DNA from: Bacteroidia bacterium | GTDB lineage: Bacteria; Bacteroidota; Bacteroidia; SpSt-205 | Direction of reading: 5' to 3' | Assembly (NCBI GenBank): GCA_025057135.1 | Contig: JANWXY010000082.1 | Coordinates: 1-40,897, forward strand | Length of the DNA stretch: 40,897 nt | Part shown: positions 1,716 to 39,828 of the stretch, one piece after another | Numbering within the stretch: the stretch's first letter is position 1 | Layout: every line of letters begins with the position of its first letter | Notes under the pieces: model-generated | What the model was told of the DNA's origin: nothing | Seen by the model: the letters and a program-made list of their open reading frames with translations, nothing else | Database searches by the model: none | Made by a program: the position numbers and the translations under genes

Positions 1716-1719
1716 GCCT

Positions 1720-1727
1720 CAAAGATA
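1720..1727 (-). promoter_or_regulatory. Bacteroidota -7 box TATCTTTG for porX
   Basis: The minus strand reads TATCTTTG, an exact TAnnTTTG match, followed by 4 bases and the porX ATG. Transcription would start at or next to the start codon. I see no clear TTG -33 element. Confidence 0.7.
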
Positions 1728-1739
1728 GCGGATTATTTT

Positions 1740-1747
1740 TACCTTTG
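1740..1747 (+). promoter_or_regulatory. Bacteroidota -7 box TACCTTTG for the SpoIIE phosphatase gene
   Basis: An exact TAnnTTTG match ends 5 bases before the GTG start at 1753. It sits back to back with the porX box, within a 37-base intergenic gap. Confidence 0.68.
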
Positions 1748-1752
1748 GATGA

Positions 1753-3504
1753 GTGAAGGTTCCGATAGTCATAGCGTGGTTGCCAGAAAAATGGGCTTCC
1801 GTAGCACCTGTGTTGCAAGCTGGGCTCGGAGAGGTAAATCTTATGCTTTTCTCTCACATGCAAGCCGCCCAGTCTTTTGTAGAAAAAACTATTGTGGAAG
1901 GGGGGGAGCTTTTTCTATTGATTGCTCCTCTGCCAGAGGGAAAGGAGTTTCTAACTGAGTCACTATATCGGTGGCCCTTAGCTTACGGACTGGCTTTGAC
2001 TGATGATTCTAACTTCATAGAGGAGCGAGCCGACTATCTTACCGTCCTCGTCAACGGGGATGTCCGATGCCTCCATCCGCATCTCAATGAGTTACGGGAA
2101 AGATATTTGGAGCGCCGAGAACGGGAAAGAAAGCAGCGTATCCTCACTGAACTCCATCGGGTCTCGCTCTCTTTGACAGGGGAGGTGCGCTTAGAGCGTC
2201 TTATCTTCAAACTCCTGCGCATTGCCATTGACAATAGCGGGGCAAAGTACGCCTTTCTGATAGTGCCCGCACCAACTAATCCTGAGAAGTTTGAGGTCGT
2301 GGGGTATGCTCATCGCTCTGACCATGAACCTCGTCCCTATCATTCCCGAGAATTGCAGGCAGAAGATCGTATTTTCCATCTACTTGTTCTCCACGCCGCT
2401 CGCAGCCGTGAGAATGTCTTACTTTCTCAGGCTGCCGGAGACACCATTTTTCATCATCATCCCGATTGGGAACGGCTCGGAGCTTACTCGCTTTTATGCC
2501 TACCTCTTATCTACCAAGGGCAGCTCATAGGACTTCTGTACCTGCATGAGCCGGAGCCCGAAATAGAAACTCAGCCAGAACGCATGGAGTTTCTCAAGCT
2601 TTTTACAGCCCCAGCGGCGGTGGCGCTCCAGAATGCACAGCTCTATGCGAATATGGAGGCCCGAGTCCGAGAGAGAACAGAAGAAGTGATTCGTCAAAAG
2701 GAAGAGATAGAGCGCCAGAGTTTGCTCCTGCGTCAGCAGAATGAAGACATCCTCGCCAGTCTCCGTTATGCTCAGCGTGTCCAGCGAGCAATCTTCCCCT
2801 CTTGGAGCGAACTTCAAAAGACGCTCCCAGAAAGCCTTCTATTCTACCAGCCAAGGGAAATCGTCGGTGGAGACTTTTATTGGTTTGCTCAGCGATTGAG
2901 TAAAATCATCATCGCCGTGGGAGATTGTACAGGGCACGGCATACCCGGCGCCTTCATGACAATCATCGCTAATACGCTTTTGAAGCAGATAGTAGAGTTG
3001 GAAGGTGTATTCAAGCCCTCGGAAATTCTTTACTTACTCAATCTACGCATGCGAGCTGCCCTGCAGCATGAGGAGGAGATGTATCAACGCTTTCGGGAGG
3101 GGATGGAAATATCTATTATTCAGTTAGACCCCAAGCGTCGGAAACTCTTGTATGCTGGGGCTGGGCGACCACTTTTCGTAGTTCGGGGACGAAAAGGAGA
3201 GGAAATCCGTCCTGATAAAATTACCATAGGCGCTCCCTACGAGGGGGACGCGCCCGAGTTTTCTCTCCATTCTATGGACTTAGACCCGCAAGAGATGATT
3301 TATCTCTTTTCGGATGGATTTGCAGATCAGCTCAATCCTGAAAATAAAAGATATCAGATTCGGCGTTTCTATGAGTTTTTAGAGCTAATAGCCGAGCAGC
3401 CTGTGCGTCAGCAAGCCGTCCTATTAGAGTCTGAACTGAGCCGCTGGATGGGGAATGTTCGTCAAACAGATGACATTCTCGTTTTAGGCATACGAGTGAC
3501 CTGA
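1753..3504 (+). CDS. GAF-domain SpoIIE/PP2C-type serine phosphatase
   Basis: The 583-residue protein has an N-terminal segment of about 120 residues that loosely resembles a receiver domain without a clear phosphorylation site. A GAF-like sensor domain follows (about 130-300), then a coiled coil rich in Glu/Arg/Gln (about 300-345). A SpoIIE-type PP2C phosphatase domain runs to the C terminus. PP2C metal-binding motifs are visible as VGGDFYW and GDCTGHGIPGAFMT. The segment SLRYAQRVQRAIFPS is typical of Bacteroidota SpoIIE-like phosphatases. The family dephosphorylates Ser/Thr on partner proteins such as anti-sigma-factor antagonists, but no partner is encoded nearby. The GTG start is preferred because the ATG at 1749 is out of frame and the TACCTTTG box ends 5 bases upstream. 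The name does not imply sporulation. Confidence 0.85.
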   Translation: MKVPIVIAWLPEKWASVAPVLQAGLGEVNLMLFSHMQAAQSFVEKTIVEGGELFLLIAPLPEGKEFLTESLYRWPLAYGLALTDDSNFIEERADYLTVLVNGDVRCLHPHLNELRERYLERRERERKQRILTELHRVSLSLTGEVRLERLIFKLLRIAIDNSGAKYAFLIVPAPTNPEKFEVVGYAHRSDHEPRPYHSRELQAEDRIFHLLVLHAARSRENVLLSQAAGDTIFHHHPDWERLGAYSLLCLPLIYQGQLIGLLYLHEPEPEIETQPERMEFLKLFTAPAAVALQNAQLYANMEARVRERTEEVIRQKEEIERQSLLLRQQNEDILASLRYAQRVQRAIFPSWSELQKTLPESLLFYQPREIVGGDFYWFAQRLSKIIIAVGDCTGHGIPGAFMTIIANTLLKQIVELEGVFKPSEILYLLNLRMRAALQHEEEMYQRFREGMEISIIQLDPKRRKLLYAGAGRPLFVVRGRKGEEIRPDKITIGAPYEGDAPEFSLHSMDLDPQEMIYLFSDGFADQLNPENKRYQIRRFYEFLELIAEQPVRQQAVLLESELSRWMGNVRQTDDILVLGIRVT

Positions 3505-3527
3505 GAGAAGGGAGAGGAGGTTTAGAG

Positions 3528-4163: not shown

Positions 4164-4171
4164 GGGCAGTC

Positions 4172-6192: not shown

Positions 6193-6212
6193 ACAGCCGC
6201 TAAAACAAATAT

Positions 6213-6827
6213 CTAATCTTCATCCGTATCTTCAATATCCTCCTCGCTCATCCAGTCTTTGGGGGATTCGGTTGGTTCGTCGGGCTCATCGTCATCGTCT
6301 TCTTCGTCAATCACCTGAGATTGATTGAGTAGGAGGTCTATATCTTCATATTTTACCACCCCTTGTACAGACGGCACGTAGTTCAAAGAGTAATCTGCAT
6401 AAAGCCGCTTGGGAGGTATTTTCATATGCTTTTCGACGACTTTTTCTATAAAGTATTGAAGTTCGTCCGTAAAACTTATAGGACTCTGGATGCGTTGAGG
6501 TGAAGGTTTGAATGGTGCGCTATTTTGGTAAGCGATTAGATTCTGGCATCCCAAACTGATGACATAAGTAAAACGCTCGGTGATGATTTTGATTTGAGGG
6601 ACGAAACACTCAGCTATGGAGCGGTCCGTATCTTCGTCATCGGCACTAATAAACTCATCCTCCCATTCGCTGGTTATTTTTAGACGAATGACCTTTTCTT
6701 CCCAGGAAGGATGAAGGGCATTATCAGCGGTGATATCGGGGGCTGGCCTGAGCTTAGCGATCAGAATCTGAGATTTCTGTGCCCATACAGCTATTGCAGA
6801 AGACAGGCAGATTAAATATACCTTCAC
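6213..6827 (-). CDS. Exported protein of unknown function with acidic C-terminal tail
   Basis: I do not recognise this 204-residue protein. Residues 1-16 (VKVYLICLSSAIAVWA, GTG start) form a signal peptide with likely cleavage before Gln, the Ala|Gln pattern common in Bacteroidota exported proteins. The middle (about 20-170) is mixed alpha/beta with one cysteine (GCQNLIAYQN). The last 33 residues are strongly acidic, built of Asp/Glu runs with two tryptophan- or proline-containing breaks, and could bind calcium or a basic partner. It is the first gene of the operon leading to bcp, rdgB and udk. The GTG start lies 4 bases after TACCTTTG (6832-6839, minus), which supports it and predicts a leaderless mRNA. 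Confidence 0.7.
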   Translation of the reverse strand: MKVYLICLSSAIAVWAQKSQILIAKLRPAPDITADNALHPSWEEKVIRLKITSEWEDEFISADDEDTDRSIAECFVPQIKIITERFTYVISLGCQNLIAYQNSAPFKPSPQRIQSPISFTDELQYFIEKVVEKHMKIPPKRLYADYSLNYVPSVQGVVKYEDIDLLLNQSQVIDEEDDDDEPDEPTESPKDWMSEEDIEDTDED

Positions 6828-6831: not shown

Positions 6832-6839
6832 CAAAGGTA
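6832..6839 (-). promoter_or_regulatory. Bacteroidota promoter for the 6827-3528 operon
   Basis: The minus strand has TACCTTTG 4 bases before the GTG start at 6827. A TTG trinucleotide lies 19 bases further upstream (6859-6861), a plausible -33 element. The box sits in the 20-base gap behind the SufT-like gene. Confidence 0.75.
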
Positions 6840-14611: not shown

Positions 14612-15027
14612 AAAGGCAGGTCGTTATCGTCCAAGGAAAGATCAGGCGGAGTCGGTTCAGAAATATCAGGTGCCGAGCTGTCGGTGGCTGTGGGCGTTTG
14701 CGCGTCTTGGGAGGCATATGATACTATTCGTAAGTTTTGCACTCGGCACTCAAAGCTAATCCCCGGGGTATTGTCTTGTCGGGTATAGAGGCGAACCCCC
14801 GGTGTGCCTTCTACCAGTACTATGGCCCCCTTTTTGAGAAGTTTGAGGACTTCGGTGCTTTCTCCGGGGTTTCGCCAGTAGGAGCATTCTATCCACTGGG
14901 TTTTTTCTTCTCCGGAAGGAAGCCGCTGAGTACTTGGTATAGAAAAGCGAATAACCTGGCCATTTGATACGGAACGGAGCTCAGCGTCTCGTCCAAGTCT
15001 GCCAACAGCGATGAGTTTCAGATACAT
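14608..15027 (-). CDS. ssb: Single-stranded DNA-binding protein
   Basis: A 139-residue SSB. The OB fold occupies residues 1-105 (LKLIAVGRLGRDAEL, VIRFSIPSTQ, TQWIECSYWR, KGAIVLVEG). A Pro/Thr/Ser-rich linker leads to the acidic tip DDNDLPF, the conserved docking peptide for partner proteins. It starts 2 bases after the stop of the M23 peptidase gene and its stop overlaps the tilS CTG start. The protein is somewhat shorter than E. coli SSB but normal for Bacteroidota. Confidence 0.95.
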   Translation of the reverse strand: MYLKLIAVGRLGRDAELRSVSNGQVIRFSIPSTQRLPSGEEKTQWIECSYWRNPGESTEVLKLLKKGAIVLVEGTPGVRLYTRQDNTPGISFECRVQNLRIVSYASQDAQTPTATDSSAPDISEPTPPDLSLDDNDLPF

Positions 15028-15029: not shown

Positions 15030-15881
15030 CTACTCCAAAAGTAAATACTTCCGAGGATCCACTTTGGCTCCACGCTCTATCACTTCATAGTGCAGGTGCG
15101 GTCCCGTGGAGTAACCCGTAGACCCTACATAGCCGATAATATGCCCGCGTGGGACCATATCTCCGACATTCACGGCGGTGCTGCTGAGGTGTGCGTACTT
15201 AGTAACTATGCCATTGAGGTGGTCTATTTCTACCTGTATGCCATATCCCCCTTTATCCCAGCCGGCGTAAATAACCTTACCCGCAGCAGCCGCTTTTACT
15301 GGAGCCCCCATCGGCGCATCTATATCTACACCAGTGTGCATCTGCCATGCACCATGGAAAGGGTCGTTTCGGTAGCCATAGTCGCTAACTATCGGTCCCC
15401 TTACGGGATACAGACAGGGCATTCTATTGAGGCGTTCATTTACCTCAGAGAACTGCCTTTCTATGACCCGATATTCACTGAGGAGGCGATGACTTCGGTA
15501 TAGGCCGATTTCTTCTGGCGTAGTAGGGCTACCACCCATTCCTCCCTCCCATACTGAGGGCGGCAGGGGAGCCATGCCCAGGAGCGGTCGGTAGAACTTT
15601 TGCATTCGTTCGTACAGGCTTTGACGCCGTTTTTCCAAGGCATATATGCTGTTGCGTATAGCTTGAGCGTCTTGTTGGGTTCTTTGGATTTGCTTTTCTA
15701 TCAAACGAGTGTAGTGCGCTTCCCACAGAGAATAAGTCGGCGCCAAGGAGACTGCACCTGCGACTGCTCCCCAGAAAAACGCTTTGGGTATGCTACGCAG
15801 CAGCTTCCATGGAGAAAGAGAAACTCTCTTGTAGCTGAGCGTTTTTTCATCCCACTCAAAGCGATGTAAAATTCTCACCAT
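15030..15881 (-). CDS. Membrane-anchored M23 (LytM-type) peptidase
   Basis: A 283-residue protein with one transmembrane segment (about 30-50, AFFWGAVAGAVSLAP), a periplasmic coiled coil (about 55-110) and an M23 domain at the C terminus. The zinc motif is complete: HTGVDID (HxxxD) and GPHLHYEVI (HxH), with SDYGYRNDPFHG before it. Such proteins cleave peptidoglycan crosslinks or act as regulators of division or envelope enzymes; with both motifs intact it should be active. The start is the ATG at 15881. A GTG 12 codons upstream (15917) would lie on top of the TATATTTG promoter and is rejected. It is the first gene of the six-gene operon down to the PorE-like gene. Confidence 0.87.
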   Translation of the reverse strand: MVRILHRFEWDEKTLSYKRVSLSPWKLLRSIPKAFFWGAVAGAVSLAPTYSLWEAHYTRLIEKQIQRTQQDAQAIRNSIYALEKRRQSLYERMQKFYRPLLGMAPLPPSVWEGGMGGSPTTPEEIGLYRSHRLLSEYRVIERQFSEVNERLNRMPCLYPVRGPIVSDYGYRNDPFHGAWQMHTGVDIDAPMGAPVKAAAAGKVIYAGWDKGGYGIQVEIDHLNGIVTKYAHLSSTAVNVGDMVPRGHIIGYVGSTGYSTGPHLHYEVIERGAKVDPRKYLLLE

Positions 15882-15906: not shown

Positions 15907-15914
15907 CAAATATA
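15907..15914 (-). promoter_or_regulatory. Promoter of the M23-ssb-tilS-ppk1-queE-PorE-like operon
   Basis: The minus strand reads TATATTTG, with TTG 16 bases upstream (15931-15933). The gap to the ATG at 15881 is 25 bases, the longest among the exact boxes in the window, so this mRNA should have a short leader. No other exact box was seen before the genes downstream of it to 8703. Confidence 0.72.
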
Positions 15915-16000: not shown

Positions 16001-16008
16001 TATTTTTG
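16001..16008 (+). promoter_or_regulatory. Bacteroidota -7 box TATTTTTG for the FadJ-like gene
   Basis: An exact TAnnTTTG match ends 4 bases before the GTG start at 16013. The 131-base gap to the M23 gene holds this box and the divergent one at 15907-15914; I see nothing else definite in it. Confidence 0.7.
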
Positions 16009-20995: not shown

Positions 20996-21003
20996 CAAAG
21001 GTA
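20996..21003 (-). promoter_or_regulatory. Promoter of the glycosyltransferase-ilvE-pdxH operon
   Basis: TACCTTTG on the minus strand, 4 bases before the GTG at 20991. It is back to back with the box at 21014-21021, separated by 10 bases. Confidence 0.72.
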
Positions 21004-21013: not shown

Positions 21014-21021
21014 TACCTTTG
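21014..21021 (+). promoter_or_regulatory. Promoter of the S66 carboxypeptidase gene
   Basis: TACCTTTG on the plus strand, 4 bases before the GTG at 21026. The two divergent starts are only 34 bases apart, so their upstream elements must overlap. Confidence 0.72.
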
Positions 21022-22510: not shown

Positions 22511-22518
22511 CAAAAGTA
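22511..22518 (-). promoter_or_regulatory. Promoter of rplU-rpmA inside the preceding terminator's T tract
   Basis: TACTTTTG on the minus strand, an exact TAnnTTTG match, 8 bases before the rplU ATG. It forms the end of the T-rich tract after the hairpin at 22524-22553. Confidence 0.65.
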
Positions 22519-22523
22519 AAAAT

Positions 22524-22553
22524 AATCCCCCATATCTCATGATATGGGGGATT
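22524..22553 (-). terminator. Rho-independent terminator for the T9SS cargo gene
   Basis: A perfect 13-base stem (arms 22524-22536 and 22541-22553) with a 4-base loop. On the minus strand it is followed by ATTTTTACTTTTG. It begins 27 bases after the stop of the minus-strand gene ending at 22581. Confidence 0.85.
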
Positions 22554-22580: not shown

Positions 22581-25415
22581 CTATTGACGGAGGAGCTTAC
22601 GAGTTTCCGTATATCGTCTGCCTTGGGCGTCGATGATATCCAGTTGTAAGAAGTAAATCCCTTGGGAGAGACCGTTGGTATTCCAGCGGAGGGTGTGTTC
22701 TCCGGCGGGGAGAGGAGAGGGGTGGGTATGACCTGTGATTCTTTGGCCGCTAAGCGAGAAAAGCTGCCAGCTTACTCGTTTAGCCCCGGTAGGTAGAGCG
22801 AGGCGAATCATGATTTCATCAGAGAATGGATTGGGGAAAGCTTCTATGCGAATAGAGGTGCTACCAATCGTAGTAGGCAGGCTGGTAGCGGAGCGGCTAT
22901 TGAGCTTCCAGATGCCGCGCCCCCAAGTACCTATATAGATCGGACGCTCTGGGTCTGGTAGAAGCCTTATTTCCCAACGGGGATTCTCAGGGTCTGAGCG
23001 ATCTACGGTATCTACTTGATAGCGGTAGGGTTTCCATGTGATGCTTGTTACAGGTACGCGACCGATGACTTCTCCCGTCATTTCTTCCCATACAGGGTTG
23101 CTGATATTGATGCAGCGCCAGAGCCCCCAGTGAGTACCAGCCAGCAGAAGAGCAGCGGAGTCAGGATGGAAAAATAGGCTATATACGGGCACATTTGGGA
23201 GGTTACCATGAATGGAAGTGAAAGTCGGATTAGTATCGGTGGCATTTGTTGATACAAAGACCCGCTGGGCTGCTCCCGCATAGGAGCCCACGGCGATAGC
23301 TACGAGATTAGGATTATTTGGATGGACGGCGATAGCGCTGATCGTTCGTCCATTGACAAGGGAAGCAATAGCTGCCGTCTCGTCTTCATAATCCATGCTA
23401 TCAGCTCTATTGATGGTTATTTTATCGGCATAGCGGATGCGCAGCAGTCGTCCGTCAGAAGTTCCTATCCAAACTGTATAGTGTCCGTTTTCAGGGTATC
23501 CAGCGGCGATAGCTGTCGGGATTCTGTTGGTATTATTATAGTAGCTGGAATATATCTGGTTAGAGTTTAGGTTACTGATCGGGGTAGGGCTGACCATGCT
23601 CCAGTATTGTAGCGAATCTACACTTAAGGAGACTGCATTAGAAATGTGCCACAAGCGCCGACCTGTGGCGACAAATAAGTGCGTAGTACCCAGAAAGTTT
23701 CTGTCTCTATCGTAAATCAGTTCAGGAAAGTTTTCTAAAATCAAGAGAGGGGGATAAAGCGGACCGAAGCCTGAGGGGCGTTCATCATTCACAGCAGCTG
23801 GTTCGGTGGGAGGTTGCACATTATCGAGAGTATCGTGAGTATAAAAGGCGTACGGTGCTGGGACGTTATATATGGGACTATACTGCCTTCCATAGTCAGT
23901 GGACATTCTTAGTCGTCCCCCCTGATATGAAAAGAATACGTTACTCGGCAATCGTGTGCTTACGGCGAGATTGCCTATGGGATTGGCCACGGGTGAGAAA
24001 GCCGACCCGGGAGGGGGATTGATTATTCGGAAAATGCCCTCAGGATCAGAGGCGTATCGGCAAGCTATATTGAGGGGAGTCAGACCTGAGGCGTGGATAT
24101 CTCCATTAGGTGCCACTGCTACCGAAAGGACAGCTGCAGCTTGGATGCCTGTATTAGCATTTTCTGCCCTTGATCCATCTTTCTTTATGCGTATCAATCG
24201 GCCGTCACCTATGACGAGATAGTCCCCATTTTCTAAAAATACAAAGTCTCGTATGGGTCTGGGGAGGTTGAGCACGAGATTTGGCGCCCCTGCGATGGTG
24301 GGAGCTGCATTTGGTGGGTTGATTCGTCTCCATCCATAATCAGGCGCAAATTCCCAAATCTGGTTTCCGCCTAAGAGGATATGGGATGGGTCGCTGGGAT
24401 CAATCGTGAGAGCAATCACCTTTGCGCCTAAGTTGCCTAATACATTGAAAGAGTTATTCTGCCGAGAAGCAATTGGCGTCCAAGAGCCACCATTATCTGA
24501 GGATACCCAGACAGTGAGCAGCTCTCCATTGGCGTTTGCACTAGCCAGATACAAGATAGATGGATTAGACGGCGCAGAACGCACCACTACATTTCCACCG
24601 CCTATTCCTGTGATTCCTGTCGTGCCGGCCTGCGTGACCTCGGTGGGTAGGCTTATAGAGACCTGACTGAATGTTTGTCCGTCGTTGGTAGATACAAAAA
24701 GCCCCGTATTGGTCGTTACAAACAGGGTATGGTTAGCTCCCCACGCAATGCTACGCAAGGGACCTCCCCCGGCAATGCCAGATTTGCGAATCGTTTGGAG
24801 GTTGTCAGAGGAGAAGATTACGCTATCTGGCGTGAGGATAGCTATCTTATCTCCCGAAATGGCGATATCTACGATATTCGTCAGCCGTCCTGAGGAATAG
24901 TTAGAACCATAGGAAATGTTTGGATAGGAGAGAGTCCATGTTGCGTTTTGATTAGAAAAAGTTTGTCCGCCGTCCGTAGAAACGAAAACCCCCATACCGG
25001 GCAATCCGAATCCGCCCATGATGTTTGGACGTAAGGTGTCTATGACCCGGAATGATACCCCAGCTTCATTGAACTGCGAGATATTCCCAGTACCGACATA
25101 AAGGATGCCGTTAGAAGCGGCGAGGGCGGTTACAGCTAAACTGCGATAGGCCGCCTCCCCATTTTGATTCAGAGAAAAACTCGGTGTCAGTCGCCATGTG
25201 CGTCCTTCATCGCTGGATTCGTATAACCCGCCAAAAGCTGAGCCCACATAAATTTTATTACCTACCCGTATGCCTCGAGTGAGAATGCTTCCGATGTTTG
25301 TAGGCCCAACCGGCTCCCATGGAAAGTAAGATGTGGAGGTTTCCATCCTAATCGGATGCGGCCGCCAGCTTAGTGATATGAATATAAGTCCCACTAGGGC
25401 AGTTAAACGCCACAT
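22581..25415 (-). CDS. Large secreted beta-propeller (BNR/sortilin-like) protein with T9SS sorting domain
   Basis: A 944-residue exported protein. Residues 1-17 form a signal peptide (MWRLTALVGLIFISLSW). The body holds many Asp-box/BNR-type propeller repeats such as SSDEGRTWRL, STDGGQTFSN, STNDGQTFSQ and SSDNGGSWTP, the fold of sortilin and exo-alpha-sialidase-like proteins. No catalytic residues are evident, so the substrate is unknown. The last 80 residues are a type A T9SS sorting domain: FPNPFSDEIMIRL, then QLFSLSGQRI, LRWNTNGLSQGIYFLQL and a basic end. It should cross the outer membrane by type IX secretion and be cleaved or anchored. ATG at 25415 is 4 bases after TATATTTG. A strong terminator follows. 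Confidence 0.88.
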   Translation of the reverse strand: MWRLTALVGLIFISLSWRPHPIRMETSTSYFPWEPVGPTNIGSILTRGIRVGNKIYVGSAFGGLYESSDEGRTWRLTPSFSLNQNGEAAYRSLAVTALAASNGILYVGTGNISQFNEAGVSFRVIDTLRPNIMGGFGLPGMGVFVSTDGGQTFSNQNATWTLSYPNISYGSNYSSGRLTNIVDIAISGDKIAILTPDSVIFSSDNLQTIRKSGIAGGGPLRSIAWGANHTLFVTTNTGLFVSTNDGQTFSQVSISLPTEVTQAGTTGITGIGGGNVVVRSAPSNPSILYLASANANGELLTVWVSSDNGGSWTPIASRQNNSFNVLGNLGAKVIALTIDPSDPSHILLGGNQIWEFAPDYGWRRINPPNAAPTIAGAPNLVLNLPRPIRDFVFLENGDYLVIGDGRLIRIKKDGSRAENANTGIQAAAVLSVAVAPNGDIHASGLTPLNIACRYASDPEGIFRIINPPPGSAFSPVANPIGNLAVSTRLPSNVFFSYQGGRLRMSTDYGRQYSPIYNVPAPYAFYTHDTLDNVQPPTEPAAVNDERPSGFGPLYPPLLILENFPELIYDRDRNFLGTTHLFVATGRRLWHISNAVSLSVDSLQYWSMVSPTPISNLNSNQIYSSYYNNTNRIPTAIAAGYPENGHYTVWIGTSDGRLLRIRYADKITINRADSMDYEDETAAIASLVNGRTISAIAVHPNNPNLVAIAVGSYAGAAQRVFVSTNATDTNPTFTSIHGNLPNVPVYSLFFHPDSAALLLAGTHWGLWRCINISNPVWEEMTGEVIGRVPVTSITWKPYRYQVDTVDRSDPENPRWEIRLLPDPERPIYIGTWGRGIWKLNSRSATSLPTTIGSTSIRIEAFPNPFSDEIMIRLALPTGAKRVSWQLFSLSGQRITGHTHPSPLPAGEHTLRWNTNGLSQGIYFLQLDIIDAQGRRYTETRKLLRQ

Positions 25416-25419: not shown

Positions 25420-25427
25420 CAAATATA
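25420..25427 (-). promoter_or_regulatory. Promoter of the T9SS cargo gene
   Basis: TATATTTG on the minus strand, 4 bases before the ATG at 25415, with TTG 17 bases upstream (25445-25447). This is one of the most complete promoters in the window. Confidence 0.78.
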
Positions 25428-25985: not shown

Positions 25986-27743
25986 TTATTTCCGTTTGAA
26001 CCAGCGCTGCATTTGAGCGCGCTGTTGAGCTACCTGGGCCTTGTTTTGCTTTTTTCGTTGAATCTCTCGCAGTTTCCGGGCTAATGCCTCTTTGTCTACA
26101 AACTGCTTCATCACTAAGGTCTGTACAATGGTTAGAAGGTTCAGGACGAAGTAATACCAACTCAGAGCAGAGGAGTAATCGTTCAGGAAAATGAAGAATA
26201 TCACAGGGGAGATATAAGACAGCCATCTGAGATTCTGAGGCGTAGTCGTCTGCCCTTGTTGCACAATGTAAGTATAGGCAAGTGTAGAGAGAGCGGTCAG
26301 TAGGGCAAATAGACTGAGGTGGTCCCCTATCAGAGGAATGTTTATTCCCCATTTTATCAGCGCATCATAGGAGGAGAGGTCAGAGGTCCAGAGAAACCCC
26401 TGCTGCCGCAGTTCAAATGCATTTGGGAAAAAGCTGGTCATAGCGAAAAATATCGGTATCTGTAAGAGTAGGGGAACGCACCCACTTAGCGGGCTGACTC
26501 CAAGCTGGCGATACAGAAGGCTGCGCTCTATCATGAGCTTGTCGGGCTGATCCTTGTATTTTTCCTCCAAGGCTTTGACTTCGGGTAGTTCATTCACCAC
26601 CTGCATTCTCACCCCGAGGAGATAGCTTCGCCATGTCAGAGGTGATAGAAGGATTTTGACCAGCAGCGCCAGAATAGCTATGATGACGCCGTAAGACGAA
26701 ATATACTTCTCTAAAAATCCAAACACGGGTATGATGAAAGCGGTATTGATGTACCGGATAAAGTTCCACCCTAAGTTGAGCTGCTTTTCGTAATCCTCTT
26801 TATAGGAGCGGAGAAGGGCATATCGGGTCGGTCCCAGATACCACTGCTGCTCGGTCTTGTCATTTGTCAGGGGGAGTTGGAGTTCTATCTGGTACTTGGG
26901 CAGACCGCTAAAGGGCAGAGTCGTAAGTGTAGCGGAGGAAAAAGCCTCGTTTGCTTGGAGAATGGCACAGAAAAACTGTCCTTTGGCGGATATCCAACGA
27001 ATACGCCCTTGCAGGGCTTTTTGTTGGGTTTCATCTTCATCGGGGGTGATGGACTCAACCTCCTCAGCTTGTCGGTAATAGAGGGCGCAGTGAGGTCGCA
27101 TTGATGCAGTAGAAGGTTCTGTTTGTGGTGTCTGGTAGCTTAGCGTATAGGAGACATAAGGATTGCGGAGGTTTTCTTTCAAGTTATGGAAAGCGATACG
27201 CTGTCGGAAGTGATACTTATCGGCAGGGATATAGTAGCTGACTTGGATGAAAGTGTCAGGCGCAAGGCTGAGGCGGAAAACTACGCTATCCTCAGTGGAA
27301 ATGGCCTTAGGTGGTGCATGGACCAAAGTGAAGTATAATCGCTCACTACTTATGACCGCCCGTCCTTCGGCGAATATAAATGCCTGTTTCTGTGAAGAGT
27401 CCCAGAGGGTAATCGGTTTTCCTTGAAGGCCTGTCAGATTTTTCAGGGTATGCGTGTGAAGTGCCGCCCCTTTCGTGCTGAACTGAAAACGGGCTACTTC
27501 ATTCTCCACAGTTATGAGGCTATCTTTTCCAGTAGCGAACTGTGCATACCTCCCCAGGCGAGCGAATAAAAAGTTAGAATCTACTTTCTCTGCGGGAAGG
27601 GTGTCTCGATTTCCTTGGGATAAACTTGTAGTGTCTGAAGTAGAACGAGAAGCTGACGGGGCAGAGCTACGAGCCATCCATATGGTCCACAGGAACATTA
27701 GCAGAGTAATCAAGAATATCCCAATCCAAGTCTGTCGCTGCAC
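25986..27743 (-). CDS. yidC: Membrane protein insertase YidC
   Basis: A 585-residue YidC of Gram-negative type. It has an N-terminal transmembrane helix (about 6-23), a large periplasmic beta domain (about 60-335) and the conserved C-terminal insertase core with several membrane helices. Core marks are ILLSPLTWRSYLLGVRMQ with the conserved arginine in the groove, then KLMIERSLLYRQLGVSPLSGC and VPLLLQIPIFFAM. The C-terminal tail is basic (KRK end) and can contact ribosomes. GTG at 27743 provides the first membrane helix and lies 4 bases after TATCTTTG (27748-27755, minus). Neither pyrG nor the rnpA-rpmH cluster is adjacent. Confidence 0.96.
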   Translation of the reverse strand: MQRQTWIGIFLITLLMFLWTIWMARSSAPSASRSTSDTTSLSQGNRDTLPAEKVDSNFLFARLGRYAQFATGKDSLITVENEVARFQFSTKGAALHTHTLKNLTGLQGKPITLWDSSQKQAFIFAEGRAVISSERLYFTLVHAPPKAISTEDSVVFRLSLAPDTFIQVSYYIPADKYHFRQRIAFHNLKENLRNPYVSYTLSYQTPQTEPSTASMRPHCALYYRQAEEVESITPDEDETQQKALQGRIRWISAKGQFFCAILQANEAFSSATLTTLPFSGLPKYQIELQLPLTNDKTEQQWYLGPTRYALLRSYKEDYEKQLNLGWNFIRYINTAFIIPVFGFLEKYISSYGVIIAILALLVKILLSPLTWRSYLLGVRMQVVNELPEVKALEEKYKDQPDKLMIERSLLYRQLGVSPLSGCVPLLLQIPIFFAMTSFFPNAFELRQQGFLWTSDLSSYDALIKWGINIPLIGDHLSLFALLTALSTLAYTYIVQQGQTTTPQNLRWLSYISPVIFFIFLNDYSSALSWYYFVLNLLTIVQTLVMKQFVDKEALARKLREIQRKKQNKAQVAQQRAQMQRWFKRK

Positions 27744-27747: not shown

Positions 27748-27755
27748 CAAAGATA
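27748..27755 (-). promoter_or_regulatory. Promoter of yidC
   Basis: TATCTTTG on the minus strand, 4 bases before the GTG at 27743, with TTG 17 bases upstream (27773-27775). The remaining gap to 27860 shows nothing else I can identify. Confidence 0.78.
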
Positions 27756-28198: not shown

Positions 28199-28206
28199 AA
28201 ACTTTG
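28199..28206 (+). promoter_or_regulatory. Near-match -7 box AAACTTTG before the membrane protein gene
   Basis: AAACTTTG differs from TAnnTTTG at the first base and ends exactly 4 bases before the ATG at 28211, the favoured spacing in this window. The divergent start at 28184 is only 26 bases away. Confidence 0.4.
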
Positions 28207-28210: not shown

Positions 28211-29446
28211 ATGCTCGTACTATCGCCCCTTCATGAAGCAGCAGGGTTTGTCGTAGTGGGGCTATGGTTAGGATATGTTGGGTACCGGATAGAATATCAT
28301 CGCCTGCCACTCTGGCTATATGTTGCTCTGATAGCGAAAATTTTTGCTGCGTGGTTTTTTGGGTGGTTGTATGCGAGCTACTACTGTCATGGGGATACGC
28401 TCAAAGCATACTTGACTGCCAGCCGCTTAGCTTATTACCTCTGGGAGGTGCCCGCAGATGGACTGGCTCTCCTTTTTCGGGAGCTGAGTCCTGTATGGGA
28501 GGCAAAAGGTTGGCGGATTTTTTTTCAGGACATTCACTTGTACGGCTATGATTATGAGTGGAGCGAGCCCAGTAGCTATTTCTTTTACCGTCTACTTCTC
28601 CCTTTGTATCTCGCAGGGGGTGGAAGCTACTACGGCATGCAAGGACTAACAGCGATAACTGGCGGACTGCTTAGCTATGCTGCCTATCGGAGATGGGCCC
28701 AGCTAAGCCTATTCCCGAGTCATTTCTGGGTGGTCTGGTTTCTTCTACCCAGTGGGCTTCTATGGACGTCAGGCGCCCTGCGAGACACATTTGCTGTGCC
28801 ACTGATGCTGTATGGCATGGCATGGATCGCTAATGTGCAAAGCTGGCGAGACTTGTGGGGCTTGCTCGCTTTGCTCGTATTGGCTGCATTGCGTTTGGAA
28901 GCATTACCACTGGCTGTAGTTGGCGGTATGCTCTATCGGTGGGGCAATCTCTGGCTCTTACTCGCAGGCGCGGGGGCGGCGGTATTCGCTTTGGGGCTAT
29001 TTATAGGCCCGTGGGCGTATGCCTATCGCGCAGAAGCGCTCCTGCCTGCTATCCATCCTGATATAGCGGAGGCCAGCACTTTTCGTCTTGATTACGAGCC
29101 AAGCTTCTGGGGAAGTCTCATCGGATGGCTGAGGGCTCTACCGTATGGGCTGCTGGGACCTTTCCCCTGGCAAATACAAAAGCCGCTTGTTTGGCTGTAT
29201 GGAATAGAAACTTGGGGCATGGCGGGATTAGGTGCATACTATGCGTGGCGTTCAACTTGGGGGCTTAGGCAGATTCTGCTTATTTTAATGGGCATTTTTG
29301 TCATCGGTGTCGTGGCTATGGCTATGCCCTACTGGGGCACATTAGCGCGGCAGAAGCTATATGGGATTTACTTCATGGCCTTGGGGCTGGGTATGGCTTG
29401 CGAGCCACTCTTCAAGGATAGACCAGACAGCTTGAGCGAGTCGTAG
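28211..29446 (+). CDS. Polytopic membrane protein, possibly GT-C-like, function unknown
   Basis: I do not recognise the family of this 411-residue protein. It has about ten hydrophobic segments across its whole length. Soluble loops include SYYCHGDTLKAYL after the second segment and a Trp/Tyr-rich region (WSEPSSYFFYRLLLPL). The motif LPSGLLWTSGALRDTFAVPL is followed by an arginine-containing membrane segment. Such polar motifs between helices are seen in polysaccharide polymerase and GT-C proteins, so envelope glycan synthesis is a guess. The ATG at 28211 has a near-match box 4 bases upstream. The last 90 bases overlap the convergent dehydrogenase gene, an unusually long overlap. Confidence 0.72.
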   Translation: MLVLSPLHEAAGFVVVGLWLGYVGYRIEYHRLPLWLYVALIAKIFAAWFFGWLYASYYCHGDTLKAYLTASRLAYYLWEVPADGLALLFRELSPVWEAKGWRIFFQDIHLYGYDYEWSEPSSYFFYRLLLPLYLAGGGSYYGMQGLTAITGGLLSYAAYRRWAQLSLFPSHFWVVWFLLPSGLLWTSGALRDTFAVPLMLYGMAWIANVQSWRDLWGLLALLVLAALRLEALPLAVVGGMLYRWGNLWLLLAGAGAAVFALGLFIGPWAYAYRAEALLPAIHPDIAEASTFRLDYEPSFWGSLIGWLRALPYGLLGPFPWQIQKPLVWLYGIETWGMAGLGAYYAWRSTWGLRQILLILMGIFVIGVVAMAMPYWGTLARQKLYGIYFMALGLGMACEPLFKDRPDSLSES

Positions 29447-33007: not shown

Positions 33008-33570
33008 AGCTTTTCAGCGATTTTAGAAGCCCAGGCACTTTTTGAAGCAGGAGGTGGGGGTTTAGGAGTGGAGGCGGTAGGTGTGGATTGGGCTGGGGCG
33101 GAGGGAGAGGTGACAAGTGGGGATTGAGCATTTACTAACTGGTCAAGCCGTTCTAACTGAAGCGTCAAGAAAGCCCGCATTTCTAAGAGAATATCCTGAC
33201 GGCGCTGCTGTAATACGCGAATTTCCTCTTGGAGCTGGGCTTGTTGTCGCTGTGCATTATTGATGATATCCTCGGCTTTTTGCTGGGCCTCTTGGACTAT
33301 GAGGGTAGCATTTTTTTCTGCGTTTTGAAGGGTCAGTCGGCTGGTTTCCTCGGCCTGGAGAAGGGTTCGTTGGAGGATGTTTTCCATCTCCTTATATCGG
33401 GCTATTTCAGCGGAGAGCTGCTCTACTTTTTGCTTGAGGGTATGCTTTTCGTCCAAAAGCGCGCCCCAAGCTTGAGCTATCTGTCGCAGAAATGTACGCA
33501 CTTCCTCTGGGTCATAGCCGCGGAGGGAGCGATTGAAGGTCTGATTTTGAATATCTATGGGGGTGAGCAT
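33004..33570 (-). CDS. DivIVA-domain coiled-coil protein
   Basis: The 188-residue protein begins LTPIDIQNQTFNRSLRGYDP and EEVRTFLRQIA, the DivIVA N-terminal domain that senses curved membranes in Gram-positive bacteria. A long coiled coil (about 45-150) rich in Gln, Glu and Lys follows. The Pro/Thr/Ser-rich tail (TPTASTPKPPPPAS) ends in a short helix. In Gram-negatives such proteins are less studied. Here it heads an operon with dcd, lpxD and DUF502, suggesting a link to envelope growth or division. Its ATG lies 13 bases after TACCTTTG (33584-33591, minus). Confidence 0.87.
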   Translation of the reverse strand: MLTPIDIQNQTFNRSLRGYDPEEVRTFLRQIAQAWGALLDEKHTLKQKVEQLSAEIARYKEMENILQRTLLQAEETSRLTLQNAEKNATLIVQEAQQKAEDIINNAQRQQAQLQEEIRVLQQRRQDILLEMRAFLTLQLERLDQLVNAQSPLVTSPSAPAQSTPTASTPKPPPPASKSAWASKIAEKL

Positions 33571-33583: not shown

Positions 33584-33591
33584 CAAAGGTA
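33584..33591 (-). promoter_or_regulatory. Promoter of the DivIVA-dcd-lpxD-DUF502-NUDIX-dehydrogenase operon
   Basis: TACCTTTG on the minus strand, 13 bases before the ATG at 33570, in the 40-base gap after nuoF. No exact box was seen ahead of the genes downstream to 29357. Confidence 0.65.
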
Positions 33592-33610: not shown

Positions 33611-34885
33611 TTAGACAGGGACAAGCGTGGGGTGGGCCACTTTTTCAAATTCTGTCCGATACTTTTGCACAATCGCTCGTACGGGCCACACCGCCGCATC
33701 AGCCAAAGCGCAGATGGTACGTCCCTCCATCTGATTAGCCACAGAAAGCAAGCGATCTATGTCTGCATACGTAGCCGTCCCATTTAGGAATCGGTGAAGG
33801 ATTTTTTTCATCCATCCTGTACCTTCACGACAGGGGGTGCATTGCCCACAGGACTCGTGCTTATAGAAGCTCGCTATTCGGTAAGCGAAGCGTACCATAT
33901 CCGTGTCTTCATCTAATACCAGCATACCCCCGGTACCCATCATACTACCAACTTTTCGTAGGGCATCGGCGCTCATTCGTACCTCTTCTATCTCTTCTGC
34001 TTTTAGAATAGGGGTAGATGCGCCCCCTGGCACTACGCCTTTGAGCTTTTTACCTTGGCGAATACCCCCGGCCACTTCATAGATTAGGTCTTTTATCAGC
34101 ATTCCGCTGGGGTATTCATACACCCCGGGACGATTGACATGTCCAGATATGCCGTACAAAATCGGGCCCGGATGCTCAGGGGCACCAATCTTGACATAGT
34201 TTGCAGCACCTATGCGGAGGACGAGGGGCACATGGGCGAGGGTTTCTACATTATTGATTGTTGTCGGAGAGGCCCATAACCCCTTTTGGGCTGGAAAAGG
34301 TGGTTTATAGCGGGGATAGGCTCGTTTGCCCTCTAAAGATTCCATTAATCCAGTTTCCTCTCCGCAGATGTAAGCTCCTGCGCCCCGATGTACGTATAGT
34401 TCCGTTGTAAAATCTGTTCCTAAAATCCGCTTTCCGATGTACCCTCTCTCGTAAGCCTGATTTACAGCATTTTGCAGGATATCTATCCAGTCGGCATATT
34501 CTCCTCGCACATACACATATATGGCGTCTATCTGCATGGCATATGCGGCGATGAGAGCCCCCTCTATGAATAAGTGGGGATTGAACTCTAAAATCCGCCT
34601 GTCTTTGAAGGTGCCGGGCTCAGATTCATCCCCATTGGCGGCGAGGTATCGGCGCACGCCTTCTTTTTTGGGAGGCATGAAGCTCCATTTTAGACCCGCG
34701 TTGAAGCCCGCGCCCCCTCGACCGCGAATATTAGCGGCTTTCACCTCATCTATTACTTGGGCTGGGGTCATGCTTTCTATCACTCGTCGATACTGTTCAT
34801 AGCCGCCATGCGACTCATACACGCGGATGTCGTGAAGGTTTGCGATTCGTGGTAAAAGGAGGGGACGATAACTGCGCCAATCCAT
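33611..34885 (-). CDS. nuoF: NADH-quinone oxidoreductase subunit F
   Basis: A 424-residue NuoF, the complex I subunit that binds FMN and NADH and carries cluster N3. It shows GRGGAGFNAGLKWSFMP for the NADH/FMN loop, ANGDESEPGTFKDR, HRGAGAYICGEETGLMESLE and SPTTINNVETLAHVP. The cluster ligands are in ESCGQCTPCREG and a later cysteine in TICALADA. The gene stands alone: no nuoE, nuoG or other subunit is next to it, although these usually form one operon. The ATG at 34885 has TTACTTTG, one mismatch from the -7 box, 4 bases upstream. A NAD-reducing hydrogenase or formate dehydrogenase diaphorase subunit is a less likely alternative. Confidence 0.93.
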   Translation of the reverse strand: MDWRSYRPLLLPRIANLHDIRVYESHGGYEQYRRVIESMTPAQVIDEVKAANIRGRGGAGFNAGLKWSFMPPKKEGVRRYLAANGDESEPGTFKDRRILEFNPHLFIEGALIAAYAMQIDAIYVYVRGEYADWIDILQNAVNQAYERGYIGKRILGTDFTTELYVHRGAGAYICGEETGLMESLEGKRAYPRYKPPFPAQKGLWASPTTINNVETLAHVPLVLRIGAANYVKIGAPEHPGPILYGISGHVNRPGVYEYPSGMLIKDLIYEVAGGIRQGKKLKGVVPGGASTPILKAEEIEEVRMSADALRKVGSMMGTGGMLVLDEDTDMVRFAYRIASFYKHESCGQCTPCREGTGWMKKILHRFLNGTATYADIDRLLSVANQMEGRTICALADAAVWPVRAIVQKYRTEFEKVAHPTLVPV

Positions 34886-34889
34886 ATGT

Positions 34890-34897
34890 CAAAGTAA
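34890..34897 (-). promoter_or_regulatory. Near-match -7 box TTACTTTG before nuoF
   Basis: TTACTTTG on the minus strand differs from TAnnTTTG at the second base and ends 4 bases before the nuoF ATG, the favoured spacing here. Confidence 0.42.
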
Positions 34898-34917: not shown

Positions 34918-34925
34918 TATCTTTG
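34918..34925 (+). promoter_or_regulatory. Promoter of the DUF1573-monooxygenase-dehydrogenase operon
   Basis: TATCTTTG ends 4 bases before the ATG at 34930. It fixes that ATG as the start rather than the 30-codon longer frame, since the longer form would begin upstream of the promoter. Confidence 0.75.
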
Positions 34926-34929
34926 TCGT

Positions 34930-36036
34930 ATGCAAAAAGTCCTCAAACTCGCCGCGGCATTCGCTATCTTGTGGGCGCAGATCACCTTTGATAAAACTGA
35001 ACATGATTTCGGCGAGGTGGTGGAAGGGCCTCCCGCTGTATATACCTTTACTTTCAAAAACACTGGCACCAAGCCTGTCAAACTCACCTCTGTGAAGGCT
35101 TCCTGCGGTTGTACTACACCGAGTTGGACACAAGATGAAGTGCCCCCAGGCGGGACAGGGCAGGTACAAGCCTCCTATGACACAAAGGGGCGTCCGGGTA
35201 ACTTCATCAAAACCATAACCGTTCAGTATGATGGAGGGACCACACCTGTAATACTTACCATCAAGGGGGTCGTAAAGAGCTCTAATCAAGCTCAGGACAA
35301 ATACGGCGAAGTAGACGCGAACCTTGCATGGACGAAGCGTAGGGAAACCTTCGGACATGTCAAATCTGATCAAACTCCGTCGCTCACTTTTGAAGTAAAA
35401 AATATCGGTCAATCGCCTGTGGAATTTTTAGAAGGTGTGGAGCTTAAGCCGATGTTCAAGCTGAGTTTTTCTCCAAAGGTACTCCCTCCTGGACAAGAAG
35501 GAAAGGTAACAATCACCTTAGACGGTAAAGCCGCCCGAGCGGCTGGTTGGAAAAATCAGTCGGGCTTTTATGAAATCATCAAGATAAAGACTACTGACCC
35601 TGTCAGCCCTGAGAAGCAGCTCGTCGTAAATGGGAGCTTTGAGATTGCCTATACCCCCGAAGAGTTAGCCAAGGCTCCGAAAGCCGTATTTCCTGTAACA
35701 GAGTTTGACGGTGGAGAAGTTTTAGAAGGACAAGTGGTGGAGTATCGGTTTGTCCTTCGTAATGAAGGGAAAAGTGATCTGGCGATTGAAAGTGTGAAGG
35801 CATCTTGCGGGTGTACGGCAGTGGAGCCTACTGAAAAGCTGCTCAAACCTGGCCAGAGCACTGAAATCGTAGCTAAGTTTGACTCTCGGGGGCGTCCAGG
35901 TCCTCAGCACAAAACTATAACTGTGGAAACTAACGACCCCATGAACGGCCGAGCTGTCCTCCATCTCAAGGCGAATGTCATCTCACCTTCTAACTTCGGA
36001 GTCGGAGGCAGCGCACCTGTCAGTCCAGGTTACTGA
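34930..36036 (+). CDS. Exported protein with three DUF1573-like Ig repeats
   Basis: A 368-residue protein with a signal peptide MQKVLKLAAAFAILWA|Q. Three immunoglobulin-like repeats of about 110 residues follow (about 20-117, 130-240 and 255-355). Repeats 1 and 3 have the DUF1573 signature: HDFGEVVEG or FDGGEVLEG, then VKASCGCT (C59/C61 and C293/C295), then KGRPG or RGRPG and ITVQYDG or ITVETND. The middle repeat keeps the fold (FEVKNIGQSPVEF) but lacks the CGC motif. DUF1573 proteins are common in Bacteroidota and their function is unknown; CGC pairs could bind metal or form a redox site. It is first in an operon with a flavin monooxygenase. The start at 34930 gives the signal peptide and is 4 bases after TATCTTTG. 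Confidence 0.87.
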   Translation: MQKVLKLAAAFAILWAQITFDKTEHDFGEVVEGPPAVYTFTFKNTGTKPVKLTSVKASCGCTTPSWTQDEVPPGGTGQVQASYDTKGRPGNFIKTITVQYDGGTTPVILTIKGVVKSSNQAQDKYGEVDANLAWTKRRETFGHVKSDQTPSLTFEVKNIGQSPVEFLEGVELKPMFKLSFSPKVLPPGQEGKVTITLDGKAARAAGWKNQSGFYEIIKIKTTDPVSPEKQLVVNGSFEIAYTPEELAKAPKAVFPVTEFDGGEVLEGQVVEYRFVLRNEGKSDLAIESVKASCGCTAVEPTEKLLKPGQSTEIVAKFDSRGRPGPQHKTITVETNDPMNGRAVLHLKANVISPSNFGVGGSAPVSPGY

Positions 36037-36041
36037 GATAT

Positions 36042-38145: not shown

Positions 38146-39712
38146 GCTGATCTTTCGGGCTTATTCTTTTATTTCGTTTAGCTACATCGCTGAGAGCGAT
38201 CGCGGCTAAAATGTAGCCAAAGAATATAGAGATATAGAAGTATCTCCATTCGGAATGCCCTGTCAGCACTGGGACGACAATCATGCCCCACGCAGCACCC
38301 ATAAGTGTGAGCAGGATACCCTTTTCCGTAGTTCTGTAGCGATTACGCCATATGCCTATCAGCAGATATAGGCTGCTAAAAAATCCTAAAATCAGCCCTG
38401 TTGTAGCATATACGCTGACATAATAGAAGTAAGCTTGCTTAATCCACCGAGGCACACGACCGCGTCCCTCTTCGGCTTTTTGAGGTGGATGAAAGATATT
38501 GTCATAGAGAACCATGACGCCTCTGTAGAAAGGAAGCCACTTGTATTCCCGTCTAAGTTCAGCCATAATCGTGTCCAGCTCTCTCACTACTTGTTTCGCT
38601 ATGGACACTTTTTCTGATTTACTTAGGGAGTCCCCAAAGCGATGACGCTTTATATCAAGTAGCACTTTTTTCCACCTGTCTTTGGTAAGCACTTTGGAAT
38701 ACACCCACTCTGGGAGGCATGCAGCAGTTGGCGAGTCTTTCTGAATCTCCTGAGATATGCAGAGCATCAAAGATTTTGGATGATATTGAATCGAATGGGG
38801 CATTCCGAGCATAGCCTCCAACTCTCCTAATTTTATCCTCACATAGTTATAGACTTGCGTGGGCATCCAACACGCCTCTACGGTTTCATTTGAGCATAAA
38901 GTAACTCCATAAATATTTGAAGGATCAGTGAGTACCCATCTGCAAGTATGTTTATATACATGCCAGCTCCATAATCCCTGAGGAATGAGCCATGTAGGGA
39001 TGAGGATCAGGATAGGCTTTCCCCTGTCAAAACCGAAACTCAACATCCAGATTATCACTGGAATGAATATAAAAGGAGCTGCTCTGAACTTGGAGAAATA
39101 TGCCCAGACAGCGAAAAATATGGATACAAACAGATAGAAGTATGAACGCTTCTTCACGGACGCAATTAGAGCCAAGACTGATAGCCCCAAAGGAAAATAA
39201 TAAATATCGCCCATTAGCATGCTTAATAGGTATGGGGGTAGAAGTAGTAAAGGCAGCAGACCCCAATACACCTTTATATGAAAAAAACTGCATACTTCAA
39301 ACACAATGTATATTATTATGCTCAAAAAAAGAGTTAGGTATATGAAATACAGAGCCCTTGTGACCCTTTCAAACTGGGGTATCGTCAAATCAAGCCAATC
39401 TGTCAAAATGATGCTTGGTAGTAAAAGTGTGCCTATACCCGGATAGGACCCTTGACGAGGCAAACACTCTCCCTGACTTTGAGCACTGTCTAAGATGGTC
39501 CTTAGTGGAATGGGTAGGTTGTTGCGCTCTGCGGAGGTGAGGGGCTGACTGAAAGAGCCATTGTATAGTAGGTTTACCATCGGTCGGAAACTCGTCATAA
39601 AATCATCATAGAAAAATCCCCTCTCCTCGGGAGGACGCTCTATGTAAGTAGTGTAGAGTAAATGAGTAATACTCAGTCCAGCTGCGATGAAGAGTGAATG
39701 CAAGTATCGCAC
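38102..39712 (-). CDS. Polytopic membrane protein of unknown function, possibly GT-C-like
   Basis: I do not recognise this 536-residue protein. It has an N-terminal membrane helix and then an extracytoplasmic loop (about 25-95) with YDDFMTSFRP and a cysteine. Six or so membrane helices follow (about 110-260), then a large polar domain (about 265-430) with several cysteines (TLCSNETVEACW, LMLCISQE, AACLPEW), and three C-terminal helices. An early acidic loop plus many helices recalls GT-C glycosyltransferases, but I cannot confirm it. The GTG at 39712 lies 5 bases after TAAGTTTG (39718-39725, minus). Base composition drops clearly in the 39.0-39.4 kb part, compared with the dehydrogenase next door. 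Confidence 0.7.
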   Translation of the reverse strand: MRYLHSLFIAAGLSITHLLYTTYIERPPEERGFFYDDFMTSFRPMVNLLYNGSFSQPLTSAERNNLPIPLRTILDSAQSQGECLPRQGSYPGIGTLLLPSIILTDWLDLTIPQFERVTRALYFIYLTLFLSIIIYIVFEVCSFFHIKVYWGLLPLLLLPPYLLSMLMGDIYYFPLGLSVLALIASVKKRSYFYLFVSIFFAVWAYFSKFRAAPFIFIPVIIWMLSFGFDRGKPILILIPTWLIPQGLWSWHVYKHTCRWVLTDPSNIYGVTLCSNETVEACWMPTQVYNYVRIKLGELEAMLGMPHSIQYHPKSLMLCISQEIQKDSPTAACLPEWVYSKVLTKDRWKKVLLDIKRHRFGDSLSKSEKVSIAKQVVRELDTIMAELRREYKWLPFYRGVMVLYDNIFHPPQKAEEGRGRVPRWIKQAYFYYVSVYATTGLILGFFSSLYLLIGIWRNRYRTTEKGILLTLMGAAWGMIVVPVLTGHSEWRYFYISIFFGYILAAIALSDVAKRNKRISPKDQPNPKEGFGDTQSDA

Positions 39713-39717
39713 GAAAG

Positions 39718-39725
39718 CAAACTTA
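39718..39725 (-). promoter_or_regulatory. -7 box TAAGTTTG for the membrane protein gene
   Basis: An exact TAnnTTTG match on the minus strand, 5 bases before the GTG at 39712. The 116-base gap to the lipoprotein gene contains only this and the opposite box as recognisable signals. Confidence 0.62.
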
Positions 39726-39812
39726 GCTATAAATAAGAGAGGCTTCGCCCGTCCTCTGTAGGCGCGAATGACAAACTGTGGTAACTATTTCTCACAGAGT
39801 GGAGATTTTGCT

Positions 39813-39820
39813 TACCTTTG
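39813..39820 (+). promoter_or_regulatory. -7 box TACCTTTG for the lipoprotein gene
   Basis: An exact TAnnTTTG match, 8 bases before the ATG at 39829. It argues against the longer open frame starting at 39778, which would begin before the promoter. Confidence 0.65.
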
Positions 39821-39828
39821 CTCCCAGT

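Follow-up and report, generated by a model that had tools for sequence, protein, structure and literature searches.

Where do mRNAs begin when the promoter box lies almost against the start codon? This question is raised by the window, that is, the whole of a 40,897-nucleotide stretch (positions 1 to 40,897) of contig JANWXY010000082.1 from the Bacteroidia bacterium assembly GCA_025057135.1, in which the box TAnnTTTG repeatedly precedes start codons at one short, fixed distance. A sequence-only reading of this DNA had identified the box as the −7 element of Bacteroidota promoters and had taken its placement as a sign of widespread leaderless mRNAs. By extending the counts to the rest of this genome, to its family and to other members of the phylum, we found that the placement recurs throughout the family, for which leaderless or near-leaderless mRNA is very probably the best explanation.

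The gap was defined as the number of bases between the end of a box and the start codon, and ATG and GTG codons opening at least 60 codons were counted. The window holds 36 exact TANNTTTG boxes, compared with 19.6 ± 4.4 in 100 shuffles, the richest of which had 30; the chance rate given in the sequence-only reading (one per 4096 positions per strand, about 20 in all) was correct, and the window exceeds it. Gap 4 occurs eight times, at exactly the starts previously listed (1715, 6827, 16013, 20991, 21026, 25415, 27743 and 34930), against a mean of 0.35 cases per gap at gaps 9–59 (Poisson P ~4e-9), and the assertion that such repeated placement at one distance is non-random therefore stands. The gap-5 cases before 1753 and 39712 and the gap-8 cases before 22502 and 39829 were likewise present, to which we add a third gap-8 box (15036–15043, before the start at 15027). 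Gaps 0 and 1 have one case each, and gaps 2, 3, 6 and 7 have none. The gaps of 13 and 25, which had been given without their genes, match the starts at 33570 and 15881 (the latter being an ATG codon), and each of the two near-matches, before 28211 and 34885, departs from the box at one base and has a gap of 4. The figure of 18 transcription units, among which the boxes had been counted, varies with the operon cuts. The boxes of the window, with one hairpin that adjoins them, are as follows.

1720..1727, minus strand: −7 box TATCTTTG, gap 4 to the ATG at 1715 (response regulator + PglZ-domain protein)
1740..1747, plus strand: −7 box TACCTTTG, gap 5 to the GTG at 1753 (GAF + SpoIIE-domain protein)
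6832..6839, minus strand: −7 box TACCTTTG, gap 4 to the GTG at 6827
15036..15043, minus strand: −7 box TACTTTTG, gap 8 to the ATG at 15027; the end of the upstream gene is 2 bp away
15907..15914, minus strand: box TATATTTG, 25 bases before the ATG at 15881 (possible M23 peptidase start)
16001..16008, plus strand: −7 box TATTTTTG, gap 4 to the GTG at 16013 (enoyl-CoA hydratase / 3-hydroxyacyl-CoA dehydrogenase)
20996..21003, minus strand: −7 box TACCTTTG, gap 4 to the GTG at 20991 (glycosyltransferase)
21014..21021, plus strand: −7 box TACCTTTG, gap 4 to the GTG at 21026 (LD-carboxypeptidase)
22511..22518, minus strand: −7 box TACTTTTG, gap 8 to the ATG at 22502 (ribosomal protein bL21)
22524..22553, minus strand: terminator-like hairpin of 13 pairs, its T-run adjoining the bL21 box
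25420..25427, minus strand: −7 box TATATTTG, gap 4 to the ATG at 25415 (protein with a type IX secretion system (T9SS) C-terminal sorting domain)
27748..27755, minus strand: −7 box TATCTTTG, gap 4 to the GTG at 27743 (YidC)
28199..28206, plus strand: near-match with one mismatch, gap 4 to the ATG at 28211 (weak EpsG match, under the Pfam cut-off)
33584..33591, minus strand: box TACCTTTG, 13 bases before the ATG at 33570; predicted leader of about 8–9 nt
34890..34897, minus strand: near-match with one mismatch, gap 4 to the ATG at 34885 (NuoF)
34918..34925, plus strand: −7 box TATCTTTG, gap 4 to the ATG at 34930 (DUF1573 protein)
39718..39725, minus strand: −7 box TAAGTTTG, gap 5 to the GTG at 39712
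39813..39820, plus strand: −7 box TACCTTTG, gap 8 to the ATG at 39829

The box at 6832..6839 is possibly an internal promoter, as a co-directional gene sits 20 bp upstream, and the assignment of the box at 15907..15914 as promoter of 15881 is uncertain, since it lies inside the longest reading frame. The longest frame of the DUF1573 gene (34930) opens at a TTG at 34840. Before bL21 (22511–22553, minus strand), a terminator, a promoter and a short leader are packed into 78 bp, and the T-run of the hairpin reaches into the box.

The remainder of the same genome (G000; 2.08 Mb in 94 contigs) displays the same distribution. Across 20 sampled stretches totalling 368 kb outside the window, gap 4 was found 37 times against 2.37 per gap, gap 5 was found 13 times and gaps 6–8 together 32 times, while gaps 0–3 and 9–12 had 0 to 3 cases each. 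Genome-wide, TANNTTTG-N4-RTG yielded 264 matches, against 31 for the reversed pattern and 39 at gap 40. The genome-wide distance check proposed in the sequence-only reading thus returned a sharp peak at gap 4.

The placement is concentrated at the heads of transcription units. Gene calls relied on long frames and a hexamer score. Each start was set at the earliest ATG or GTG in the frame, blind to the box, and a gene was considered first when divergent or when separated by over 60 bp from a co-directional gene before it. Four genomes were analyzed, namely G000 (window included), KatS3mg025, G007 and G003, along with a comparison set of 79 named loci from other genomes (1.31 Mb), two of which are labelled Ignavibacteriales and Desulfonatronospira. 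KatS3mg025, a metagenome-assembled genome, is the nearest named genome; identical counts to those of G005 are the ground for placing it in the window's genus, and by its name it derives from the Katase hot-spring sediment sample KatS3 (52 °C, pH 7.2), according to the text of PMC9671151 in which mg025 is named. A similar share of first genes carries an exact box at gap 4–100 in both sets (191 of 498 in the four genomes, 284 of 648 in the 79 loci), but the positions differ: gap 4–8 accounts for 152 of these 191 boxed first genes and for only 23 of the 284 (Fisher P ~1e-60). By genome, the counts were 39/46 in G000, 79/98 in KatS3mg025, 13/21 in G007 and 21/26 in G003, and gap 4–5 alone was found in 112 of the 191. 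Hence, recognisable promoters are not more numerous in the four genomes; they are shifted to the start codon. Relative to all genes called there, gap 4–8 boxes precede 152 of 498 first genes versus 58 of 603 operon-internal ones, the latter of which may represent internal promoters or wrong operon cuts; among the 79 other loci, such internal boxes were found in 2 of 311 genes. Gap 6 seemed to be avoided, as though only leaders of 0 or 3 nt occurred, but this was dismissed as a product of allowing TTG starts: the box contains a TTG that is in frame when the gap is 3, 6 or 9. The recount restricted to ATG and GTG is the one used here.

The anatomy of the box was examined in an alignment of 162 gap-4 genes from the four genomes, in which any in-frame start within 40 codons was accepted. 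G occupies the two free positions of the box in 11% and 6% of these genes, an avoidance that was outside the search pattern. Positions −20 to −16 are rich in T and A, and a pyrimidine immediately precedes the start codon in 76% of the genes; the codon itself opens with A in 78%, with G in 20% and with T in 1%, TTG being nearly never used. The stricter form TAHHTTTG fits 38 of 41 gap-4 boxes, compared with 198 of 307 boxes overall. This avoidance of G at the free positions is shared with the mapped promoters of Flavobacterium johnsoniae and supports the earlier identification of TAnnTTTG as the Bacteroidota −7 element; those promoters are described with the revised box TAHHTTTG and 4 or 5 nt between box and transcription start (PMC6847099), and for F. 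psychrophilum the box is given at −12 to −5 (PMC9723704). With the spacing mapped in Flavobacterium, a gap of 4 or 5 would put the 5′ end on the start codon or one base from it, and gaps 6–8, which are also above background, predict leaders of about 1–4 nt, so that leaders of about 0–4 nt are predicted for the 152 boxed first genes in this range. We infer the mode of translation and, from those Flavobacterium promoters, the position of the transcription start.

In the mechanism that we propose, the main sigma factor of Bacteroidota would recognise promoters in which the TAnnTTTG boxes are the −7 elements, and transcription would begin with the start codon's first base at gaps 4–5 or a few bases earlier at gaps 6–8. 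The first cistron of many units would then be carried on a leaderless or near-leaderless mRNA, with the 5′-terminal AUG or GUG recognised without a Shine–Dalgarno (SD) sequence. Inner cistrons, which are also without SD sequences and often overlap the preceding gene, would probably be reached by translational coupling. SD motifs were found at 1 of 167 internal genes of G000 versus 4–8 in control windows, and 115 of 231 co-directional neighbours in this genome overlap, 40 of them by 4 bases, in a count on longest frames in which overlaps are overcounted; coupling for the inner genes is a reasonable guess.

Spacing alone cannot separate a transcription signal from a translation signal, and the genes might possess ordinary leaders from promoters further upstream, with TAnnTTTG by the start acting as a translation signal inside the leader. 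As an exact box is lacking before most first genes, there must be other or degenerate promoters as well. Internal genes, however, would need such translation signals as well and are boxed at gap 4–8 far less often than first genes, the free positions avoid G as in mapped promoters, and 39 of the 191 boxed first genes have a box solely at gap 9–100, with no second upstream set of boxes in evidence. The enrichment at first genes, the avoidance of G, the pyrimidine at −1 and the RTG at +1 argue for a promoter and not a ribosome signal, which leaves a translation signal within an ordinary leader quite unlikely.

The gap is also conserved between species. Proteins of G000 were searched with tblastn against stretches of G060, G007, G003 and G011, keeping the best hit per genome (not reciprocal), and 157 pairs were aligned at the N-terminus, with starts accepted within 10 codons of the aligned residue. 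Where the G000 gene has gap 4 (28 pairs from 23 genes), the counterpart showed gap 4 in 21 pairs, gap 5 in four, gap 5 with one mismatch in one and no box in two. Where it has a gap of 5–8 (14 pairs), seven counterparts had gap 7, two gap 8, one gap 4 and one gap 5, and three had none. Both starts were picked with some preference for a box, for which the 115 pairs without an exact box in G000 serve as control; these yielded five counterparts at gap 4, five at gap 5–8 and 94 with none, in addition to 11 one-mismatch boxes at gap 4 or 5, seven of them at gap 4. The flanks of the box have diverged in most pairs. Among the genes of the window, the gap of 4 before 25415 is retained in KatS3mg025, where YidC (27743) has gap 5 and bL21 again has gap 8 (L021), and the best hit of gene 16013 in G003 has gap 5 with one mismatch.

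As starts were chosen by reading frame and not from protein data, transcription might start as predicted while ribosomes use a later in-frame codon, leaving a short true leader. Such later initiation is very improbable, because a transcription start needs only a purine, yet RTG at +1 is in the large excess reported above (264 versus 39 at gap 40); furthermore, best-hit pairs keep RTG while ATG and GTG exchange, their alignment extends to this codon, and bL21, despite its gap of 8, matches its Pfam model from residue 1.

Tight placement of the box before the start codon is a trait of the window's family. The order comprises 13 genomes here, of which 12 belong to this family (11 in one genus and one in another) and one to a sister family. 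All 12 family genomes have high counts at gap 4 (189 to 302) relative to gap 40 (13 to 49), with ratios of about 5 to 15, while the sister-family genome has 86 and 48, respectively, a ratio of 1.8. Per-gap counts gave 98 cases at gap 4 against 5.1 in 820 kb of KatS3mg025, 20 against 0.8 in 200 kb of G007, 21 against 0.7 in 172 kb of G003 and 9 against 0.4 in 51 kb of G011, the member of the other genus; the peak was present in sampled stretches of four family genomes besides G000 (G060, G007, G003 and G011). Fifteen outsiders, which were picked for high counts and are the only outsiders run at gap 40, ranged from 1.2 to 3.7, with the highest value in G028 (146 over 39).

The reversed pattern provided a rougher control across 394 genomes of the phylum, in which, as judged by eye from the table, G000 reached 8.5 (264 over 31) and was followed by G226 with 44 over 11. 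Among 48 class members, G020 (41 over 6, or 6.8) and G051 (418 over 96) stood out by this control, G020 lying close to the lowest family member (G009, 250 over 33). The gap-40 control was applied to outsiders too, and against it both G020 and G051 drop to 2.6. G051 (L129–L132 and L186–L196) belongs to another family and has 33% GC in the first 50 kb sampled. Gap 4–8 was found in 22 of its 58 boxed first genes, an intermediate level, and it is possibly an independent or halfway case. The stretches of G234 (32 boxes, 2 at gap 4), G191 (4) and G226 (none) were too box-poor to judge. Together, the peak in G000 outside the window, its presence in 12 of 12 family genomes and the published promoter spacing support the prediction of leaderless or near-leaderless mRNAs made in the sequence-only reading.

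Chance or composition, by which an A+T-rich box and start codons would both cluster upstream of genes, could draw on the box density above shuffles and on the approximately twofold excess at gap 4 in the 79 other loci (20 versus 10–12 per gap, counted without gene calls), but it is scarcely credible given that gaps 0–2 and 9–12 are near background in G000, that the reversed-pattern and gap-40 controls are low, and that other Bacteroidota remain below the excess of about 15-fold or more found in the window's family.

Several observations nonetheless weigh against leaderless or near-leaderless mRNA as the general state of this family. No exact box at gap 4–100 was found before 307 of the 498 first genes of the four genomes (83 of 129 in G000), and with most first genes in this class the share of leaderless units cannot be stated. 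Other Bacteroidota are also mildly enriched at gap 4, so the family differs from them in degree. KatS3mg025 shows a mild excess at gap 3 (14 versus 5.1; L101–L120, L144–L163 and L021), a spacing at which the usual transcription start would fall one base inside the codon. The 162 aligned genes have no TTTG peak near −33 in a fixed-position count, which would miss variable spacing; this element is described as much less evident in F. johnsoniae (PMC6847099) and as variably spaced in Bacteroides thetaiotaomicron (PMC7366714). The predicted folding of the first 40 bases was not consistently weaker than elsewhere. No change of the translation machinery was found either, as searches for bS21, bS1 and IF3 in the 13 genomes of the order revealed no clear loss. 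The first, bS21, was found in 12 of 13, the sole miss being G009 (99% complete). Likewise, bS1 was found in 12 of 13, with one match over the curated cut-off (2 of 14 in control genomes) and a miss in G011, and IF3 was found in 9 of 13, with misses in G007, G008, G011 and G012; the bS1 and IF3 misses fall in genomes of 66–83% completeness. The 16S rRNA was matched in 0 of 13 genomes, including the one-contig G005, and was probably not reached by the search, so that the anti-SD was unseen.

Two divergent pairs of the window, 20991/21026 and 1715/1753, have only 34 and 37 bp between their starts and a −7 box of their own on each side, and the gap of 4 on both sides of 20991/21026 is retained in KatS3mg025. 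Throughout the sampled stretches of the four genomes, boxes on both sides were found in 38 of 176 divergent pairs, 12 of which have starts 29–41 bp apart. The promoters of such close pairs should overlap, and those of the two window pairs may be used in a mutually exclusive manner. Apart from the boxes, the window encodes a response regulator with a PglZ domain (153–1715, minus strand), presumably PorX-like, and a protein with a T9SS C-terminal sorting domain (22581–25415, minus strand), products which suggest a type IX secretion system in this lineage.

How start codons are chosen in Bacteroidota without SD pairing is an open question, for which the window's family offers a natural contrast, with the same sigma box, the same ribosomal proteins as far as searched, and a different predicted 5′ end. 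The box-to-start placement can also be applied directly as a rule when promoters and start codons are annotated in these genomes. Extending the reading further, we would give about even chances to a family default in which first genes are leaderless and the rest are reached by coupling, ribosomes rarely if ever load on a 5′ leader, and bS1, bS21 and IF3 are kept, with G051 halfway. If this is true, the family would be the first lineage of its kind known to us in Bacteroidota, where the mapped members are leadered. Among the matches listed, and within the extracts they offer, we recognised no paper dealing with leaderless mRNA in this family or with a constant distance between TAnnTTTG and the start.

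Leaderless mRNA as such is well known in Actinobacteria, Deinococcus-Thermus and archaea, being predicted for over 20% of genes in the first two (PMC3160421). As here, the sign read as leaderless in those two groups is a promoter box lying some 12 bases upstream of the start codon, but the box is another one (TANNNT) and the phyla differ. The same survey lists Bacteroidetes among clades with many 'atypical' genes (PMC3160421); elsewhere, Bacteroidetes are reported to harbour many leaderless mRNAs, an A+T bias being read that way (PMC5397173), and leaderless mRNA is linked to Flavobacteriia without the anti-SD core (PMC10783764). The mapped primary-sigma promoters of B. thetaiotaomicron, F. johnsoniae and F. 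psychrophilum share with the window's family the −7 box, the avoidance of G at its free positions and an A+T-rich stretch near −18. Most of their mRNAs are nevertheless leadered: about 3.7% of 5′ untranslated regions are under 10 nt in B. thetaiotaomicron (PMC7366714), 5.5% are given as leaderless in F. psychrophilum (PMC9723704), and the predicted transcripts of F. johnsoniae have leaders over 10 nt in 87% and of 10 nt or less in 13%, for which reason leaderless mRNA is there set aside as an answer to start selection (PMC6847099). In the family studied here, by contrast, leaders of about 0–4 nt are predicted for 152 of 191 boxed first genes. Such mRNA is of a known kind; here the arrangement is predicted to dominate among recognisable promoters, although it is scarce in the mapped members of the phylum. 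The lack of SD motifs at inner genes agrees with the SD-poor initiation of Bacteroidota in general; while the SD-less mRNAs of the mapped species still carry a leader, in the window's family the leader itself appears to be missing.

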